A stretch of 64,000 nucleotides of DNA from Cyanobium sp. Morenito 9A2 (GTDB taxonomy: Bacteria; Cyanobacteriota; Cyanobacteriia; PCC-6307; Cyanobiaceae). This document shows positions 9,103 to 21,326 of this stretch, in pieces; position 1 is the stretch's first letter, and each line of letters begins with the position of its first letter. The translations under genes and the position numbers were made by a program. The stretch lies in assembly GCF_024345575.1 (NCBI RefSeq), contig NZ_JAGQBJ010000004.1, forward strand, positions 1 to 64,000, written 5' to 3'. The notes under the pieces were generated by a model that saw nothing but the letters and a program-made list of their open reading frames with translations, had not been told where the DNA came from and searched no databases.

Positions 9103-9615
9103 ATGGCCCTGCTCTCGCGCCAGCCCTGGTACGTGGCCACTGCGCTGGCTGTTCCCATCCTGGTGCTCGCGTCTCCGGGGGCGCTCAAGCTCAGCGGGGT
9201 GCCCCCCTCCTGGGCCGTGCTCTGGCTTCTGCCATGGGCGTTGGTGGAAGGTCCCGTTTCCGGGGCCCTGGCGGGCCTGGGCCTCGGCTTGATGCTTGAC
9301 GGGCTCAACCTGGGGGGTGCCAGCCAGATTCCTGCCCTGGTGCTGCTGGGCTGGTGGTGGGGGCGGATGGCGCGCCATGGGCCACCTCTGGAGCGCAGCT
9401 TCAGCCTCGGGCTCCTGGCCCTGGTGGGCACAGTGCTGCTCAACCTCAGCCTGATGCTGCAGTTTGCCCTAGGCGGAAGCTCCCTGGAGGCGCTGAGGCT
9501 AAGCGGTCTCCCGATCCTGCTGGCCCAGACCCTGCTCACGGGATTGCTGGCACCGATGATCTGCTCGTTGCTGCTGCTGTTCTGGCGCCAGCAAACCTCG
9601 TCGCTGCGGGGTTGA
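9103..9615 (+). CDS. mreD: Rod-shape-determining protein MreD
   Basis: 170 aa, almost entirely hydrophobic with about five membrane-spanning segments, the usual size and layout of MreD. Sequence conservation in MreD is low, so the call relies on position after mreC and hydropathy. It is a membrane partner of MreC in the elongation complex. Only 4 bases separate it from the next gene, a solute-binding lipoprotein. Confidence 0.88.
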   Translation: MALLSRQPWYVATALAVPILVLASPGALKLSGVPPSWAVLWLLPWALVEGPVSGALAGLGLGLMLDGLNLGGASQIPALVLLGWWWGRMARHGPPLERSFSLGLLALVGTVLLNLSLMLQFALGGSSLEALRLSGLPILLAQTLLTGLLAPMICSLLLLFWRQQTSSLRG

Positions 9616-9619
9616 GCCG

Positions 9620-10969
9620 ATGCCCCTGTTCCCCCTGATCCGTTTGCCCAGACCGCTAATCACCCGGTGCCTGATCGTTCGCGGCTCCGCCGTCGCCACC
9701 GCCCTCGTGCTGCTGCTCGGTGGCTGCGCCCGGCCCGAGACCCCGAAGAAGGAACTGCAGGTCTGGACCCTGGATCTGGCCCCCAAGTTCAACGGCTACA
9801 TGCGGGCCGTGATCGCCGACTGGGAACGGCAGAACCCCGGGGTGACCGTGCGTTGGACCGACCTGCCCTGGGGATCGGTGGAGCGCAAGCTGCTGGCGTC
9901 GGTGTTCGCCCGCTCCGCCCCCGACCTGGTGAACCTCAACCCCCTGTTTGCCGCCAACCTGGCCAGCAAGGGGGGGCTTCTCGCGCTGGATCCAGTGCTG
10001 CCTCCGGCCGCCGGGTCGGCCTATCTGCCGCGCATCTGGCAAGCGGGCCGCGCCGATGGCCACCAGATCGCCATCCCCTGGTACCTGACCACGCGCATCA
10101 CCCTGGCCAACCGCACACTTCTGGCCCGCTCCGGTTACCGCCAGCCCCCGAAGCAATGGAGTGAGGTCCCGGCCTATGCCGCGGCCATCAAGCGCCACAC
10201 CGGCCGCTATGCCCTGTTCGCCACGGTGGTGCCCGACGACTCGGCTGAGCTGCTCGAATCGATGGTGCAGATGGGAGTCATCCTCACCGATGCCCGCCAG
10301 CGGGCGGCCTTTGACAGCCCCGCCGGCCGCCGCGCCTTCGCCTTCTGGACGGATCTCTACCGGCGCGGGCTGCTGCCCCGGGAGGTGGTCAGCCAGGGGT
10401 TCCGCCGGGCGATCGAGCTTTACCAGAGCGGTGAGCTGGCCCAGGTGGCCAGCGGGGCGGAGTTCCTGCGCAGCATCCAGACCAACGCGCCCACCGTGGC
10501 CGCCGCCACGGCCCCCTTTCCGCCCCTGGTGGGCCCCGATGGTGCCGCCAACGTGGCGGTGATGAACCTGGCGGTGCCCAAGCAGAGCAAGCTGCCGCGG
10601 GAGGCGGTCAGCTTTGCGCTGTTTCTCACCAACGCCACCAACCAGGCCCGCTTTGCCGAGCAGGCCAAGGTGCTGCCCTCGGCCAACGGTGCCCTGCGCC
10701 AGGTGGGGCAGCAACTGGAGCGCGCCAAGCCCCAGGGGGCGGCCGAGGCCCAGGTGCTTGCGGCCCGCAAGCTTTCCCTGGCCACCCTCGGCCGTGCCCG
10801 GGTGCTGGTGCCCGCCACCCCGGGGGTGAAGCGGCTGCAGTCGATCGTCTACACCCAGTTGCAGCGGGCGATGCTGGGGCAACTGAGCACTGACCAGGCG
10901 GTGACGGCGGCAGCCCAGGAATGGAACCGCTACGCCGAAGCCCGCTGGCCGTCAGGACCTGGCGGCTGA
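9620..10969 (+). CDS. ABC-type sugar-binding lipoprotein (extracellular solute-binding family 1)
   Basis: 449 aa. The N-terminus has basic residues, a hydrophobic stretch (about 22-36) and a lipobox LLGGC, so it should be lipidated and anchored outside the cytoplasmic membrane. The rest follows the family-1 solute-binding layout: VWTLDLAPKFNGYMRAVIADWERQNPGVTV, then SAPDLVNLNP and an IAIPWYLTTRI segment. Such proteins deliver sugars to an ABC permease, but no permease or ATPase gene is nearby. Its position 4 bases after mreD suggests co-transcription with the cell-shape genes. Ligand unknown. Confidence 0.85.
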   Translation: MPLFPLIRLPRPLITRCLIVRGSAVATALVLLLGGCARPETPKKELQVWTLDLAPKFNGYMRAVIADWERQNPGVTVRWTDLPWGSVERKLLASVFARSAPDLVNLNPLFAANLASKGGLLALDPVLPPAAGSAYLPRIWQAGRADGHQIAIPWYLTTRITLANRTLLARSGYRQPPKQWSEVPAYAAAIKRHTGRYALFATVVPDDSAELLESMVQMGVILTDARQRAAFDSPAGRRAFAFWTDLYRRGLLPREVVSQGFRRAIELYQSGELAQVASGAEFLRSIQTNAPTVAAATAPFPPLVGPDGAANVAVMNLAVPKQSKLPREAVSFALFLTNATNQARFAEQAKVLPSANGALRQVGQQLERAKPQGAAEAQVLAARKLSLATLGRARVLVPATPGVKRLQSIVYTQLQRAMLGQLSTDQAVTAAAQEWNRYAEARWPSGPGG

Positions 10970-11126
10970 GCGGAGGGATCCCAGCCAGAGCGTGCGGGGA
11001 TCCACACGCCCGTGGTTCTGGACGAATCCTTAAGAGTTCGCGAAAACCGTCTGCTCACGGTCGATTCCAGGCGCGGCGGGTCCTGGCTGAGGGGTAGTGT
11101 TGCCTTTCTTCATCCGGCTCGCCGCC

Positions 11127-11936
11127 ATGCCTTTGGAGGACCTTCCCCGTCCTGATCAGGACGAATCCTTCGAAGCGGGGCGCAGCGAGCACCAGGCCAC
11201 CGTGTTGGTGGTCGATGACGAAGCGGCGGTGCGCCGGGTGCTGCTGATGCGGCTACAGCTGGCGGGCTATCGGGTGATCATTGCCGAGGATGGCGAGGAG
11301 GCCCTGAGCCTTTTTCATCAGGAGCAGCCTGATCTGGTGGTGCTCGACGTGATGTTGCCGAAGCTCGATGGCTTTGCGGTCTGTCGTCGCCTGCGGGCTG
11401 AATCCTGCGTGCCGATCATTTTTCTCTCCGCCCTCGATGCGATCACCGAGCGGGTGGCAGGTCTTGATCTCGGAGCCGACGACTACCTGCCGAAGCCCTT
11501 CAGCCCGAAGGAGCTGGAGGCCCGCATTGCCACCATCCTCCGCCGGGTGGGCCGCGGCTCAGCCGCCAGCGAACCGCGCGACCTCCCTGTGGGCCACGGC
11601 GTGATGCGCGTTGGCGATCTGGTGGTGGACACCAACCGCCGTCAGGTCACCCGCGAGGGTGAGCGCATCGGCCTTACTTACACCGAATTCAGCCTGCTGG
11701 AGCTGCTCTTCCGCGAGCCCGGTCGGGTGGTGCCGCGGGCGGAAATCCTCGAGCAGCTCTGGGGCTACCCGCCGCGCCGCGCAGCCGATCTGCGCGTGGT
11801 CGACGTCTACGTGGCCCGTCTGCGGGGCAAGCTCGAACCCGATCCCCGCAACCCGGAGCTGATCCTTACCGTGCGGGGCACGGGCTACTCCTCCCAGCGG
11901 GTGGGCGAACCCGTCCTGGCTGGCGCCAGCGCCTGA
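11127..11936 (+). CDS. OmpR/PhoB-family response regulator (orphan)
   Basis: 269 aa from ATG 11127; GTG at 11097 would add 10 residues. A receiver domain (about 20-140) shows the acidic pair VVDDE, the phospho-acceptor Asp in VVLDVMLPK, the Ser in FLSALD and the Lys in [10 protein letters not shown] winged-helix DNA-binding domain follows (about 155-255) with [11 protein letters not shown] and [15 protein letters not shown]. It is related to the cyanobacterial RpaA/RpaB/NblR group, closest in flavour to RpaB, but I cannot name the orthologue. No histidine kinase is nearby, so its partner must be elsewhere. A 157-base gap precedes it. Confidence 0.88.
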
Positions 11937-15179: not shown

Positions 15180-15424
15180 GGCGTTGGGGTCTTCTGGGAC
15201 TGGGCCGGCGCCGTGGTGATCACAGGGGCCTCGATTTCCTCCTGCAGCGGCGTGATCGCCGCCTCGCGGGAGCGCAGCAGCAGCTGGGTGAGCCGGGCAA
15301 TCGCCCCTTCGCCCAGGTCATGGGTGCCGATGCGATCGAAGGCCTCCCGATAGAGCGCCTCGAGCTGCTCGATCAGGCCCTCACGCACTTGGCGCACGGC
15401 GCGCCGTTGGTCATCTCTGCTCAT
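15176..15424 (-). CDS. Hercynine-metabolism-associated small protein (TIGR04375-like)
   Basis: 82 aa from ATG 15422-15424 (MSRDDQRRAVRQVREGLIE). Two helices, then a proline- and threonine-rich tail. The gene overlaps egtD by 14 bases upstream and the coiled-coil gene by 4 bases downstream. The assignment to the small-protein family associated with hercynine metabolism rests mainly on gene order and size. Confidence 0.6.
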   Translation of the reverse strand: MSRDDQRRAVRQVREGLIEQLEALYREAFDRIGTHDLGEGAIARLTQLLLRSREAAITPLQEEIEAPVITTAPAQSQKTPTP

Positions 15425-16418
15425 CGGCCTGGGGTTCCTTGGCCTCCGAGTCTGCCTGCCCCAGCAGGTGAACACTGAGGTCGCCGGCTGGATCACTCCA
15501 GCGTGCCCTGGCTAGCCAGCCAGCCTGCGCCGCCAGAGCCTCGAACGCGGCGGGGTCGTACTTGGCGCTGTGTTCAGTGATCAGGGGTTCCCCTTCGGCG
15601 AAAGGCCAGCGTTCGCCGGCCACGTTGACCCAATGATCCCGCTGGCTGACCAGGGCCATTTCGATGCGCTGGGACTCCGGTTGCCAGCGGGCCCGGTAGC
15701 GGAAGGCGGCGGGGTCGAAGTCGCCGCCCAGATCACGGTTGAGCCGTTGCAGCAGGTTGAGGGCGAAGGCCGCGGATAGGCCGGCGCGGTCGTCGTAGGC
15801 CGCCTCCAGCCGCCGGACGTCTTTGGGTTGGTCGATGCCAATCAGCAGCTGGCCTCCCGGGCCCAGCAGCCGGGCGAATTGCCGCAGCAGCCCCACGGCC
15901 TCGGCACGGTTGAAATTGCCCAGGGAGCTGCCGGGGAAGAAGCCCAGCCGATTGCGCTGCTCCAGGAGTGGGTGGTCCGGCAGCTGCTCGAGGCCGGTGT
16001 AGTCGCAGCAGATGCCCAGCACGGGCACGCCGGGATGGCGGCCCTGCAGATCGCGGCAGGCCGAGCGCAGGTGATCGGCGCTGATGTCGAGGGCCACATA
16101 GGCCGGCCTCCCGAGGGCCCGCAGGAGGGGACTCACCTTGCGGGCACTGCCGGCCCCGAACTCCACCAGCACGCCTGGACCCATGGCCGCGGCCATAGCT
16201 GGTGCCTCGGTTTCCAACAGGGCCGTTTCGGTGGCGGTGAGGGTGTACTCCGGCTGGCAGCAGATCGCCTCGAACAGGCGGGAGCCCTCCGCGTCGTAGA
16301 GGAACCAGGCCGGCAGCTGCCTGGGGCTGCGGCGTAGCCCTTCCCGCACCAGCCGCTCCATGTCGGCGGCGGCGGGGTGCAGATCGAGCAGCTGGGGTTT
16401 CAGCAGCGCCGCAGTCAT
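15411..16418 (-). CDS. egtD: L-histidine N(alpha)-methyltransferase EgtD
   Basis: 335 aa, the usual EgtD length. It transfers three methyl groups from S-adenosylmethionine to histidine to give hercynine. Seen in order: WFLYDAEGSRLFEAIC near residue 35, LTATETALLE, the SAM-binding loop VEFGAGSARKVSPLL, and LGFFPGSSLGNFNRAEA. The start codon overlaps the egtB stop by 4 bases (ATGA), so the pair is translationally coupled. ahcY elsewhere in the window would recycle the S-adenosylhomocysteine produced. Confidence 0.95.
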   Translation of the reverse strand: MTAALLKPQLLDLHPAAADMERLVREGLRRSPRQLPAWFLYDAEGSRLFEAICCQPEYTLTATETALLETEAPAMAAAMGPGVLVEFGAGSARKVSPLLRALGRPAYVALDISADHLRSACRDLQGRHPGVPVLGICCDYTGLEQLPDHPLLEQRNRLGFFPGSSLGNFNRAEAVGLLRQFARLLGPGGQLLIGIDQPKDVRRLEAAYDDRAGLSAAFALNLLQRLNRDLGGDFDPAAFRYRARWQPESQRIEMALVSQRDHWVNVAGERWPFAEGEPLITEHSAKYDPAAFEALAAQAGWLARARWSDPAGDLSVHLLGQADSEAKEPQADEQR

Positions 16419-17671
16419 CCAGCGTTCCTCGCCAGCCGCAGGCCGCTGGCCATCCAGCGGCTGCCGGGGGGGAAGAAGTTGCGGTAGGTGAGCCGGCCGT
16501 GGCCGGCGGGGGTGAGGAAGGAGTGGCCCCTGAGCACGAACTGGGAGCTCATGAACTTGCCGTTGTACTCGCCCACGGCGCCGGCGGTGGGCAGGAAGCC
16601 GGGGTAGGGGCGGTAGGGGCTCGCGGTCCATTCCCAGAGCTGCCCGCAGTCCGCCAGCAGGCCCGCGGCGGTGGCGACCTCCCATTCGGCTTCCGTCGCC
16701 AGGCGGGCGCCGGCCCAGCGGGCGTAGGCCTCGGCCTCGAACCAGCTCAGGTGGCGCACCGGTGCCTGCGGCCGCAGGGGACGGCGGCCGGCGAGGGTGA
16801 ACTCCCACTCCCAGCCCTGGGCGGGGCCGCTGCCGCGCCAATAGCGCGGGGCCTGCCAACCCCGCTCGGTGGCCAGGGCCCAGCCTTCGCTCATCCAGAG
16901 TTCCGGGCGCCGGTAGCCCCCGTCGGCGATGAAGGCGGCGTAGTTGCCGTTGCTCACGAGTTGCCCGTGGAGGGCGAACGGTTCAAGCCAGTGGCGGTGG
17001 CGGGGGGTCTCGTTGTCGAAGTGGAAGCCTGTGGCCTCTTCGCCCCCATGGCCGATCGCCACCAGCCCGCCGGGATGCTCGCGCCAGCCCACCGTTCCTT
17101 CGGTGCCCGTGGCCTGGCGCGGGCCTGCGGCGTAGCGGGCTTCGGGACTGTCGGGGCCGCTGCGGTAGGCCGGTTCGAGCGGGTTGCGGGCAAACCCGTC
17201 CAGCAGGTCCATCAGCAGCAGTTCCTGGTGCTGCTGTTCGTGCTGAAGCCCCAGTTCCAGCAGGGCCAGTGGGGCGGCGCAGTGAGCTGAAGGGACCTGG
17301 TCAAGGCGCTCGATCAGGAGCAACAGCCCCGCGTCGATCCGCTGCCGCCAGGCCAGCACCTCGGCGATCGTTGGCCGGGTGAGCAGGCCGCGCAGGGGCC
17401 GTGCCAGCCGCTCCCCGATCGCGTCGTAGTAAGAGTTGAACAGATAGCCCCAGCGGCTGTCGGCCGGTTCGTGCTCGGGCAGTTCGTTCGCCAGCAGGAA
17501 AGTCTCGAAGAACCAGCTGGTGTGGCCCAGGTGCCATTTGGGCGGACTGGCGTCCGCCATGCCCTGCAGGCAGAGGTCCTCGGATTCGAGCCCGATGATC
17601 AGGGCTTCGCTCTGGCGGCGGATGGTCCCCAGCCGATGGGCCAGCGCCGCAGTGTCGGGGGGGCTCTCCAC
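16415..17671 (-). CDS. egtB: Ergothioneine-type sulfoxide synthase EgtB
   Basis: 418 aa. EgtB is a non-heme iron enzyme joining hercynine to a thiol as a sulfoxide. The N-terminal DinB-like domain carries the iron ligands: a His in WHLGH (47-50) and the pair His144/His148 in QHEQQHQE. The C-terminal FGE-sulfatase-like domain contains CGQLWEWTASPY and ends GLRLARN. No egtC gene is present next to it, so the thiol donor (cysteine or gamma-glutamylcysteine) is not decided by context. Divergent from cysK over 97 bases. Confidence 0.95.
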   Translation of the reverse strand: MESPPDTAALAHRLGTIRRQSEALIIGLESEDLCLQGMADASPPKWHLGHTSWFFETFLLANELPEHEPADSRWGYLFNSYYDAIGERLARPLRGLLTRPTIAEVLAWRQRIDAGLLLLIERLDQVPSAHCAAPLALLELGLQHEQQHQELLLMDLLDGFARNPLEPAYRSGPDSPEARYAAGPRQATGTEGTVGWREHPGGLVAIGHGGEEATGFHFDNETPRHRHWLEPFALHGQLVSNGNYAAFIADGGYRRPELWMSEGWALATERGWQAPRYWRGSGPAQGWEWEFTLAGRRPLRPQAPVRHLSWFEAEAYARWAGARLATEAEWEVATAAGLLADCGQLWEWTASPYRPYPGFLPTAGAVGEYNGKFMSSQFVLRGHSFLTPAGHGRLTYRNFFPPGSRWMASGLRLARNAG

Positions 17672-17768
17672 CGGGACAGGGTGACTGGGGGGAGGTTAAT
17701 CCGGTCAGACCGGTGCGGCGCGGCACCTACGATCGCCCCACATCTTCTGCAGGAGCACGGCCGGCGCC

Positions 17769-18755
17769 ATGGGCATTACCCAGGGATTCGTGGGTGCGGT
17801 CGGCCATACCCCCCTGATCCGGCTCGAGGCCCTCAGCGCGCTCACCGGCTGCGAGATTCTGGGCAAGGCGGAGTTCATGAATCCCGGTGGTTCTGTCAAG
17901 GACCGGGCCGCCCTCGGCATCCTGCTGGAGGCCGAGGCCAGCGGTGAGCTCCAGCCCGGCGGCACCGTGGTGGAGGGCACCGCTGGCAACACCGGCATCG
18001 GCCTCACCCACCTCTGCAACGCCCGCGGCTACCGCAGCCTGATCGTGATCCCCGACACCCAGTCGGCGGAGAAGATCGGCCTGCTGCGCAGCCTGGGGGC
18101 GGAGGTTCGAACCGTGCCCGCGGTGCCCTACCGCGACCCCAACAACTACGTGCGCCTCTCCGGCCGGATCGCCGCCGAAACCCCCGGGGCGATTTGGGCC
18201 AATCAGTTCGACAACCTGGCCAACCGGCGTGCCCATTACACCTCCACCGGCCCGGAGATCTGGGAGCAGACCGGCGGCCAGGTGGATGCCTGGGTGGCCG
18301 CCACCGGCACCGGCGGCACCTATGCCGGGGTGGCGCTGTTCCTGAAGGAACGCAACCCCCGGGTGCGCTGCGTGATCGCCGATCCCCACGGCAGTGCCCT
18401 CTACAGCTGGGCCACCAGCGGCGAACTGACCCTCGAGGGCAGCTCGATCACCGAGGGCATCGGTAACAGCCGGGTCACCGCCAACCTGGAGGGGGCACCG
18501 GTGGATGACGCCGTGCGCATCGACGACCAGAGTGCCCTCGACACCATCTACCAGATGCTCTGGGGCGAGGGTCTGTTCATGGGCGGTTCGGTGGGCATCA
18601 ACGTGGCCGCTGCGGTGGAGACCGCCCGGCGGCTGGGCCCCGGTCACACGGTGGTGACCGTGCTTTGTGACAGCGGCGACCGCTACCGCTCCCGTCTCTA
18701 CGACGCTGATTGGCTCGGCAGCAAGGGACTGCACCAGCCCCAGCGCCACCCATGA
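17769..18755 (+). CDS. cysK: Cysteine synthase (O-acetylserine sulfhydrylase)
   Basis: 328 aa, fold-type II PLP enzyme that makes cysteine from O-acetylserine and sulfide. The PLP lysine is Lys44 in NPGGSVKDRAA; the substrate-binding loop EGTAGNTGIGL and the phosphate loop GTGGTYAG are intact. It lies back to back with egtB, which could use cysteine as thiol donor. Its stop overlaps the start of the kinase-like gene by 4 bases (ATGA). CysK versus CysM specificity cannot be separated by eye. Confidence 0.92.
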   Translation: MGITQGFVGAVGHTPLIRLEALSALTGCEILGKAEFMNPGGSVKDRAALGILLEAEASGELQPGGTVVEGTAGNTGIGLTHLCNARGYRSLIVIPDTQSAEKIGLLRSLGAEVRTVPAVPYRDPNNYVRLSGRIAAETPGAIWANQFDNLANRRAHYTSTGPEIWEQTGGQVDAWVAATGTGGTYAGVALFLKERNPRVRCVIADPHGSALYSWATSGELTLEGSSITEGIGNSRVTANLEGAPVDDAVRIDDQSALDTIYQMLWGEGLFMGGSVGINVAAAVETARRLGPGHTVVTVLCDSGDRYRSRLYDADWLGSKGLHQPQRHP

Positions 18756-20824
18756 GCGCCGCGCTGATTGGCGATCGCTACCGGCTGGAGGAGGAGCTCA
18801 GCCACAGCGCCCAGGGGGTGCTGTGGCGGGCCAGCGACCTGCTGGCCGGCGAGGCGCCGATGGTGTTGCGCCAGCTGGCACCGGGCCAGGATCAGCAGCG
18901 TTTCCGCGAGCTCTGGGGCCGCCTGCAGGGGGTGCTTCATCCCCAGGTGCCCCGCTTCGGTGGCATCGTTCAGGACGGCGACAGCCTCTGGCTGGTGCGG
19001 GAGTGGCAGGGGGGTCCCACCTACCAGGAGCTCCTTGAGGCCCGCCGCGAGCGTCAGCTGGTGTTCGGCTCCGGCGAGGTGCTGCTGCTGCTGCGCCAAC
19101 TGCTGCCAGTGCTGGCGGTACTCCACAGCCAGGAGTTGCTCCACGGCGATCTCACCCCCGCCAACCTCCTGCGCCGCGACCGCGACGGCCTGCCGGTGCT
19201 GCTGGATTTCGGTCTGGTGCGCGGGGTGGCGGCCAACGGTTCTGAAACGGCTGGTCTGCTCGGGGCCACCCCCGGCTTTGCCCCGCCCGAGCTGGTGCGG
19301 GGGGCACCTGCCCAGCCCTGGATGGATCTCCATAGCCTGGGCGTGGTGGCCCTGGTGCTGCTCAGTGGCCAGGAACCCGCCGAGCTGCTCGATCCGATCA
19401 CCCTGGCCTGGCGCTTGCCCGCTGGGCTGGAGCCCGAACCCGGCTTCCGGGAGGCCCTGCTGCGCTTGCTGGCCAGTGACCCGTCCGAGCGCTTCGCCTC
19501 GGCGGCGGTGGCCCTCCAGGCCCTGCAGCAACTGCCCATGCCCGAGAGCACCGGTCCCGTGGCCCGGGCCGACCGCACCGTGGTGCTGGTGCCCCAGGCC
19601 AGTGTCCCTCCGCCACCGCCACCAACGGCGCTGACCCAGAACCCGGCTCCCCCCTCCAGCGCCGCCAGTGTCTCGCCAGCTCCGCCGCCGGAGCTGCCCA
19701 CCCTGCGGCCCCTGGCAGTCGCCAGTGGCGATCTTCCGCCCCGCAGCCGCCAGGAGCAGAAGGAGGAGGAAGCCGAAGGCAGGCTCTGGCCGGTGGTGAT
19801 CGCCCTGGTGCTCTCGGCGGTGGTGGGCACCGCCCTGGGCTGGTTGCTGCTCAGCCGCGGCAAGACCCCTGCCACACCGGATCCCGCCGCCTCCCTGCAG
19901 CTGCCGGCCAGCCTGCCGCCGGCGGAGGTGGACCAGCGCCAGCAGCTTCTCAATCGCCTGAGGGCGCTGCAGATCGATCGAACCTGGTTCCTCAAGCTGG
20001 TGGATGGCAGCTTGCTGGCCCAGTTCCCCGAACGGGGGGGGCGCCTGCCCAGCGACTCGCTCGAGGACGCGCCCCTGCGCAAAGTCTGGAACGAGCTGGC
20101 CGAAGAATGGCTGGCGCGGGTCGAACAACTGCCCCCGGAGCTGCGTCGGCGCTTGGGCAGTTTCAGCGCCGCCGACTGGCAGACCCAGCAGACCCGCCTG
20201 GGGGCCCAGGGGCTGAGCCCGGCGGTGCTGCGCCAACTCGTTTCGGGGTCAGCCCAGAATTTGCTGCCCGGCCGCTCCGGTGAGGACATCCCCCCCGAGC
20301 CCTTCCGCCAGCTCTGGTACGCGGCGGCCCAGAAGAGCCTGGCCAACGTGCAGATCGAGCAGATTCCCACCCAGGTCGGTCAGACCCGGGTGCTCTCAGC
20401 CCAGGTGGAGGCCGGGGGCGCCCGCCTGTTCCCGATCCAGATCGCCCCAGGATCCCGCCTGGTGCTGGGGGTCAACGGCTCGCCGCTGATGCAGATGAGC
20501 GTGTTCGGTGCCGATGGTGCCCTGCTGGAGGCCAAGGGTCCCTTGCGGGTGATCAGCCTCGACAAGATCACCAGCGCGCCCGTGCAGTTGCTGATCACCA
20601 ACGAGGGGGTGGCGGCGGCCCTGATTACCCTCTCGCTGCGGGTGGATCCGGCCCCGGCGGTGGAGCCCACCACCCCCACCACCCCCGGAGAGCCCACGCC
20701 CAGCACCCCGACCCCCGCCACCCCGGCGCCCACGCCAACCCCGACCCCCGCACCAACCCCAAGCCCCCCCAGCGGTCCAATGCCACCGCCGCCGGTGCCC
20801 GGCAGCGAGCCCAAGACCAACTGA
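18752..20824 (+). CDS. Ser/Thr kinase-like membrane protein, probable pseudokinase
   Basis: 690 aa. A kinase-like domain (about 5-260) keeps the catalytic loop [10 protein letters not shown] (Asp133, Asn138), the metal motif DFG (152-154) and APPE. The ATP-side features are degraded: the glycine loop reads [10 protein letters not shown] instead of GxGxxG, and the VAIK lysine is replaced by Arg40 in VLRQL. A proline-rich linker (about 285-330), one transmembrane segment (345-368), a domain of about 250 residues outside the cytoplasm and a low-complexity Pro/Thr tail (about 640-690) follow. Starts in the cysK stop and converges on smpB with a 4-base gap. Confidence 0.85.
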
Positions 20825-20828
20825 GTCC

Positions 20829-21326
20829 TCAGAGCCGGGAAATCGCCGCCCGGGTCTCCTTGGCATCCTGCTTGCGCTTTTCCTCCTGGCGCTTGTCGTG
20901 GAGCTTTCGGCCCTTGGCCAGCCCCACAGTGAGCTTGATCCAGGAGCCCTTGAGATGGAGGTTGAGGGGCACCAGGGTGAGCCCCTTCTGGTCAAGGGCG
21001 ATGCGGAACTTCTCGATTTCGCGCCGGTGGGCGAGCAGCGTGCGCACCCGCAGGGGCTCGTGGTTGAAGTAGGCGCCAGCGTGGCTGTGGGGCGAGATGT
21101 GCACGTTGTGCAGTTGCAGCTCACCGTTCCTGATCAGGCAGAAGCCGTCGCGCAGGTTGGCCTTGCCGGCCCGGATCGATTTCACCTCCGTGCCCACGAG
21201 CTCCACGCCGGTTTCGAGCGTGTCGAGGATCTCGTATTGATGGCGTGCGAAACGGTTGTCCGCCAGCAGCTTGTGGGCGGCATCCCGCGCTGCCTTGGCG
21301 GTCTTCTTGCCCCCGCCCTTCGCCAT
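20829..21326 (-). CDS. smpB: SsrA (tmRNA)-binding protein SmpB
   Basis: 165 aa. SmpB binds tmRNA and brings it to stalled ribosomes for trans-translation. The family core is clear: [29 protein letters not shown], then [16 protein letters not shown] and the C-terminal [19 protein letters not shown] tail that enters the mRNA channel. The tmRNA gene itself is not in the window. Divergent from ruvB over 51 bases. Confidence 0.97.

Follow-up and report, generated by a model that had tools for sequence, protein, structure and literature searches.

The gene at 18752..20824 (+ strand) of the window, as we call the whole stretch of 64 000 nucleotides that was analysed, encodes a membrane-anchored protein of a real and conserved pseudokinase family whose outer domain is unclassified and whose decay is recorded with unusual completeness; its function we infer. 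The whole is best explained, in our judgement probably correctly, as a receptor that crosses the membrane once and whose Hanks kinase, on the cytoplasmic side, turned into a pseudokinase on the branch to the Cyanobiaceae, a history read from sequence comparison. An earlier sequence-only reading had suggested that the protein is a pseudokinase or handles ATP in an unusual way. That proposal is supported, and the loss of the VAIK lysine appears fixed in the sampled family (no lysine in 131 distinct domains).

Gene layout and genomic context

The open reading frame gives a 690-residue protein with, in order, a Hanks-type kinase domain (residues 8-262, 18773..19537), a poorly conserved proline-rich linker (residues 282-334, 19595..19753), a single membrane helix (about residues 343-369, 19778..19858), an outer domain of about 250 residues (about 386-634) and a Pro/Thr-rich C-terminal tail (residues 640-690, 20669..20821), all on the + strand; each of the non-kinase parts announced from the sequence was found. 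The kinase domain is placed by alignment, by an AlphaFold2 model (pLDDT 78.9, falling below 50 at residues 144-148 and 161-169) and by Foldseek, whose best match to the model is the PknA kinase domain. Pfam finds kinase-type families only on the full protein. Its Pkinase match (E 6.2e-20, 72.1 bits against a cut-off of 31.7) spans residues 56-211 and so begins downstream of the degraded N-lobe. Fold and Pfam match together identify a Hanks-type Ser/Thr kinase fold. Hydropathy gives one strong membrane segment, at about 343-369, and a second, borderline window (1.64) at residues 103-121, within the kinase domain. Between the kinase domain and the variable linker the motif STGPVxRADRTVxLVP (residues 266-281, 19547-19594) is strongly conserved, a possible site of docking or phosphorylation.

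The source genome measures 3.10 Mb in 26 contigs, and among the family's named relatives are Synechococcus, Cyanobium and Vulcanococcus. Around the gene, cysteine synthase A, SmpB, RuvB, EgtB and EgtD match NCBIfam above cut-off. The upstream gene is that of cysteine synthase A (17769..18755, +; 523.6 bits against a cut-off of 387), and the kinase gene's start is coupled to its stop, as had been claimed, the ATG at 18752 overlapping the TGA at 18753-18755 as ATGA. On the other side lies the converging smpB (20829..21326, −), with ruvB beyond it. The divergent EgtB and EgtD genes, for ergothioneine synthesis, adjoin the cysteine synthase gene (window 15411-18755). Across 84 loci (80 named and 4 others, many of them cut by contig ends) neighbour matches were found to cysteine synthase in 72, to the EgtB gene in 66, to smpB in 64 and to ruvB in 62. 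By estimate, cysK and the kinase gene lie −57 to 243 bases apart in 60 rows of these 84 loci; the exact ATGA overlap was checked in the window.

A Pkinase match above cut-off was present in 37 of 48 picked genomes, and 11 of the 48 had none above cut-off. One such match, at L032, which we take to be probably PMT0154, is the only one above cut-off in its genome. The window's genome has a single further Pkinase match, P0002 (L069:781-3105, −, on G000:C23), a 775-residue frame in which an N-terminal Guanylate_cyc domain (Pfam 6.2e-8) is fused to a kinase domain that keeps the lysine and the αC glutamate and reads DFA for DFG.

The structure of the outer domain, prediction of which had been put forward as a check, is modelled (mcad810f672ac, pLDDT 86.7) as seven helices (residues 386-535, 19907..20356) followed by a nine-strand β sandwich (about residues 536-634, 20357..20653). 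Structure comparison, with a Foldseek search alongside it, matches the sandwich to p24 GOLD domains (Z 13.8 with an rmsd of 1.7 over 92 residues; another at Z 12.6), to PliG, an inhibitor of lysozyme (Z 11.9), to a collagen-binding domain (11.3) and to the collagenase PPC domain 5sv5 (Z 10.8), most of these matches spanning the β half, model residues 119-260. It shares the β-sandwich fold of GOLD and PPC domains; PliG and the collagen-binding domain score between the two, so the fold points to the superfamily and to no single family. GOLD and PPC are general binding folds, and fold likeness shows no function, so no ligand is proposed. Some of the outer-domain matches are toxin domains, again a likeness of fold only. 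Pfam gave no GOLD or PPC match in the window protein at E up to 1 or in eight relatives at E up to 0.01, and no Pfam family at all on the outer domain of these nine proteins.

In its order of kinase, membrane helix and outer domain the protein resembles the PASTA receptor kinases of PknB type. It differs from them outside the membrane, where a helical and GOLD/PPC-like domain takes the place of PASTA repeats: there is no Pfam PASTA match, the NCBIfam PASTA-kinase model scores 54.6 against a cut-off of 450, and the predicted structure mixes helices with a β sandwich.

Catalytic motifs in the window and across the family

The sequence-only reading had named an arginine in place of the VAIK lysine, a degraded glycine loop, and a retained HGD, asparagine and DFG. 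Alignment bears out all three. Arg40 (18869..18871) falls at the β3 lysine when aligned with relatives reading CVLKEFAP; the glycine loop is SHSAQG (residues 17-22, 18800..18817) against GxGGFG, with one of the usual glycines left; and HGD at 131-133 and N138, in the catalytic loop HGDLTPAN (19142..19165), and DFG at 152-154 (19205..19213) are present. Two further losses came to light. Leu54 (18911..18913) stands where intact relatives have the αC glutamate of REAGVL, a change that the earlier reading had missed, and HRD reads HGD, so its arginine is gone. The protein therefore lacks the VAIK Lys and αC Glu expected of an active Hanks kinase and has the catalytic Asp, the Asn and the DFG. Thr135 was considered as another loss and rejected: a catalytic loop of the LTP kind, without lysine, is not specific to this family, because intact relatives read HRDISPDN, HRDIAPDN or HRDISPEN.

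The wider pool comprised loci of the window's family and its named relatives, 163 kinase domains of which 136 are distinct (58 from named genomes, 78 from the rest). Named loci were assigned to the family by similarity only; L174, labelled as an unrelated bacterium, was taken as a mislabelled bin; and for L123, L142 and L158, where the gene lies in two pieces in separate frames, the better-scoring piece alone was used. At position 40 the 131 distinct domains have 127 Arg, 2 His, 1 Trp (from L142, whose frame is suspect), 1 Leu and no Lys, and all 72 of the 80 named loci that reach the position have Arg, the position being missing in the other eight. The αC position is variable and never Glu in the 131. 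The aspartate of HRD is kept in 129 of 131, the second letter of DFG is F in 109 of 132 and the third is G in 130 of 131. Alignment with orthologues, suggested earlier as a check, thus upheld the conservation of Arg40 and put the glycine loop in a new light: the window's is more degraded than the family's, in which the first Gly is present in 28 of 131, the second in 57 of 131 and the third in 120 of 130 distinct domains.

The absence of lysine from 131 distinct domains can be put down neither to faulty sequencing nor to a peculiarity of one strain. We regard it as highly improbable that this is an ordinary active kinase whose lysine was misassigned by the alignment or whose gene was misread: Pfam Pkinase does score above its cut-off, but the flanking alignment is unambiguous, and the arginine in 127 of 131 distinct sequences contradicts the idea. 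Nor was a relocated, WNK-like lysine found, since N-lobe positions 8-89 carry Lys in at most about 5% of sequences; with no conserved N-lobe lysine and a variable αC position, no WNK-like substitute is indicated.

Among described bacterial pseudokinases the DYD kinases come nearest in residue pattern, judging from the available text of PMC12599244: they are membrane-associated, have a β3 Arg, lack the αC Glu and keep the catalytic-loop Asn, as does the window protein, which is membrane-anchored too. They differ in belonging to actinobacteria and firmicutes and in reading DYD for DFG, whereas the window family is cyanobacterial and keeps DFG. The same source, in the parts available, describes ActPs2 pseudokinases, which share the conserved β3 Arg but have the HRD Asp changed to Asn, the DFG mostly deleted and large insertions, none of which applies to the window family (Asp in 129 of 131). 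It also describes CP1 pseudokinases, annotated in cyanobacteria, as being without a transmembrane region and linked to COG3899; the window protein has a membrane helix and kinase-type Pfam families only.

Intact relatives and the history of the loss

Orthologues with an intact lysine and glycine loop had been named as the evidence that would tell against a pseudokinase. None was seen within the family. Thirty-seven proteins that have both domains were read from other families of cyanobacteria (17 from among the best matches and 20 chosen as same-genus pairs), and 36 of them have the lysine, the αC glutamate, DFG and a Gly-rich loop; the exception, L042, has Gln at the lysine position. Coming from other families, these intact orthologues date the loss of the lysine instead of refuting the pseudokinase reading. 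One of them, L034, is like the window protein in its order of kinase, linker, membrane helix and outer domain (36% identity over residues 4-684) and differs in keeping GQGGFG, VLKEF, REA, HRD and DFG. Orthology between the Cyanobiaceae and other-family proteins rests on the common outer domain, at 20-27% identity.

A branch with support 100/100 sets the Cyanobiaceae apart in each of two trees, one of kinase domains (35 Cyanobiaceae rows) and one of outer domains (38); both are unrooted with long branches, and ten rows that were fragmentary or remote had been set aside beforehand. With the lysine absent in Cyanobiaceae and present elsewhere, the simplest history is that an active-type receptor kinase was disarmed on the branch to this family, probably long ago.

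Two of the 36 lysine-bearing relatives, L263 and L264, read HRN for HRD and have a loop with fewer glycines, so the catalytic Asp has been lost elsewhere in this kinase group too. Three genomes of family f25 (L189:7044-9191 then 9314-11392; L193; L194) carry a kinase with intact motifs followed by a tandem second copy that has no glycine loop and, as read in L042, has Lys changed to Gln, HGN for HRD and NFG for DFG. From its sequence we take this second copy to be an independent pseudokinase beside an active-type sister. The HG and FGL motifs that it has in common with the Cyanobiaceae form raised the idea that the latter descends from it, which neither tree supports: the kinase and outer-domain trees both place the three f25 copies (L042 and two alike) among the other families, away from Cyanobiaceae. 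Their own position is unsure, as the two trees place them differently.

The family has probably been seen in part before. A 2007 survey counted PMT0154, sync_0122, Syncc9605_0116 and Syncc9902_0160 as kinases with deviations 'deemed tolerable' and put these four marine proteins near SpkE/Slr1443; in the sections of the survey available they are not called pseudokinases (PMC2176072). The link to SpkE is that survey's placement. SpkE itself has been reported both inactive and active, according to the available part of PMC11863333. In the cyanobacterial and picocyanobacterial kinase literature, with few subscription journals covered, we found no paper that names the family a pseudokinase.

Constraint, erosion and a proposed role

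Each of nine residues picked from standard kinase knowledge (R40, H131, D133, N138, D152, G154, E180, D192 and R247) is conserved to 97% or more across 72 relatives, a level reached by 78 of the 255 kinase positions (hypergeometric p 1.7e-5; 5.9e-5 for the eight residues without Arg40). For dN/dS, 121 of the 136 distinct domains were entered, forming 45 disjoint pairs of 80-98.5% identity, and median omega was 0.148 for the kinase against 0.079 for the outer domain. Kinase dN exceeded outer-domain dN in 37 of the 45 Cyanobiaceae pairs (in the other 8 the kinase was not faster) as against 2 of 14 pairs from other families, where the median ratio was 0.61; Fisher's p of 7e-6 for this difference is only a guide, because the groups differ in divergence and pairs are treated as independent. 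Constraint on the kinase thus seems to have shifted, or relaxed, relative to the outer domain in Cyanobiaceae. The faster kinase domain could instead reflect new binding partners.

An omega near 0.15 together with the conserved catalytic set indicates that the kinase domain is no simple relic. How it might use nucleotide is another matter. An active kinase with an unusual ATP mode, in which Arg40, perhaps paired with Asp152, positions ATP and HGD, N and DFG catalyse transfer, strikes us as unlikely. It would account for the near invariance of HGD, N and DFG outside eroding lineages and for the arginine kept in 9 of 11 eroding copies of genera g5 and g30, and it has a parallel in DYD kinases, in which ATP was modelled despite a β3 Arg and no αC Glu, the Arg paired with the second Asp of DYD (PMC12599244, available text). 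It does not sit well with the variable αC position, the highest N-lobe lysine fraction of 5%, or the drop in kinase constraint relative to the outer domain. The pseudokinase may perhaps still bind nucleotide, and the retained Mg-binding residues could equally be compatible with residual catalysis. Somewhat less doubtful, and still only tentative, is a family-wide receptor pseudokinase that would bind nucleotide through Arg40 and HGD/N/DFG without the Lys-Glu pair, serving the outer domain as an ATP-dependent switch or a slow phosphotransferase.

Some lineages have gone further. At Arg40, D133, N138 or D152, 13 of 131-132 domains depart from the family, 11 of them from genera g5 and g30 and the rest being L056 and L142; N138 is lost in all 13, the activation segment is missing too from several g5 copies, and Arg40 persists in those 9 of the 11 g5 and g30 copies. 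Among 30 genomes re-examined because their matches were weak or short, so that the count is not a frequency, 12 (L203, L210-L214, L216, L217, L220, L223, L225 and L230) have the membrane helix and outer domain and no kinase match better than E 1.6 nearby, open frames of at least 25 residues on both strands having been searched. At 11 of these loci at least 1.2 kb of DNA lies upstream of the frame, and at L223 it is the frame that extends far upstream, showing no likeness to a kinase. Five of the 12 genomes are at least 95% complete (G026, G053, G169, G188 and G264) and the others 53-87%; genus mates of L203 retain the kinase. L202, the kinase-less locus of G053, adjoins smpB and ruvB, so the kinase probably disappeared from its original site. 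Only remnants of both parts are left in G219, a genome with a listed completeness of 100%. The eroding and kinase-less lineages are probably marine.

Where kinase-less genes were close enough to measure, outer-domain omega was 0.07-0.16 (one pair 0.35), and since the anchored outer domain persists without the kinase, it presumably has a job that needs none. Cyanobacteria were the only organisms searched for the domain, and there it is matched, whole or in part, in 116 of 194 genomes of the class (at E of 0.001 or less, in some cases weakly). Within the family 197 of 400 genomes have a match, or 141 of the 251 more complete ones. In other cyanobacteria many matches cover the helical half alone, in frames of about 500-630 residues; in the one such case checked, L049, a kinase domain precedes it.

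These losses invite a bleaker account, in which the Cyanobiaceae kinase domain is a functionless leftover on its way out and the outer domain alone matters. It would fit those copies from two genera in which N138, DFG and the activation segment have eroded, and the 12 genomes that have lost the kinase completely; an omega of about 0.15 over 45 pairs and a catalytic set invariant in 72 relatives, outside eroding lineages, tell against it, and we give this account little credence, less than the unusual ATP mode.

The pseudokinase receptor that we prefer combines what the sequences show with what they suggest. They show that the β3 Lys became Arg, that the αC Glu and HRD Arg were lost and that the glycine loop loosened, with HGD, N and DFG, which hold Mg and phosphate, and the C-lobe scaffold (APE Glu, D192, R247) staying nearly invariant outside the few eroding lineages. 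They suggest that the domain would no longer phosphorylate at a useful rate and would serve as a module, either responsive to nucleotide or structural only, which, to judge by the architecture, passes on or scaffolds signals coming from the helical and GOLD/PPC-like outer domain, the more constrained of the two. In some lineages, probably marine, this cytoplasmic module erodes and is lost, the anchored outer domain persisting.

Should the nucleotide-switch reading prove true, the passage from active kinase to pseudokinase to domain loss could be followed within one phylum at recognisable loci. Intact, disarmed, eroded and kinase-less forms coexist in related cyanobacteria that are harmless and in part cultured, which makes the role of a post-enzymatic kinase domain, and that of a lone outer domain, directly testable. 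Some of the proteins counted as Ser/Thr kinases in picocyanobacteria probably do not phosphorylate.
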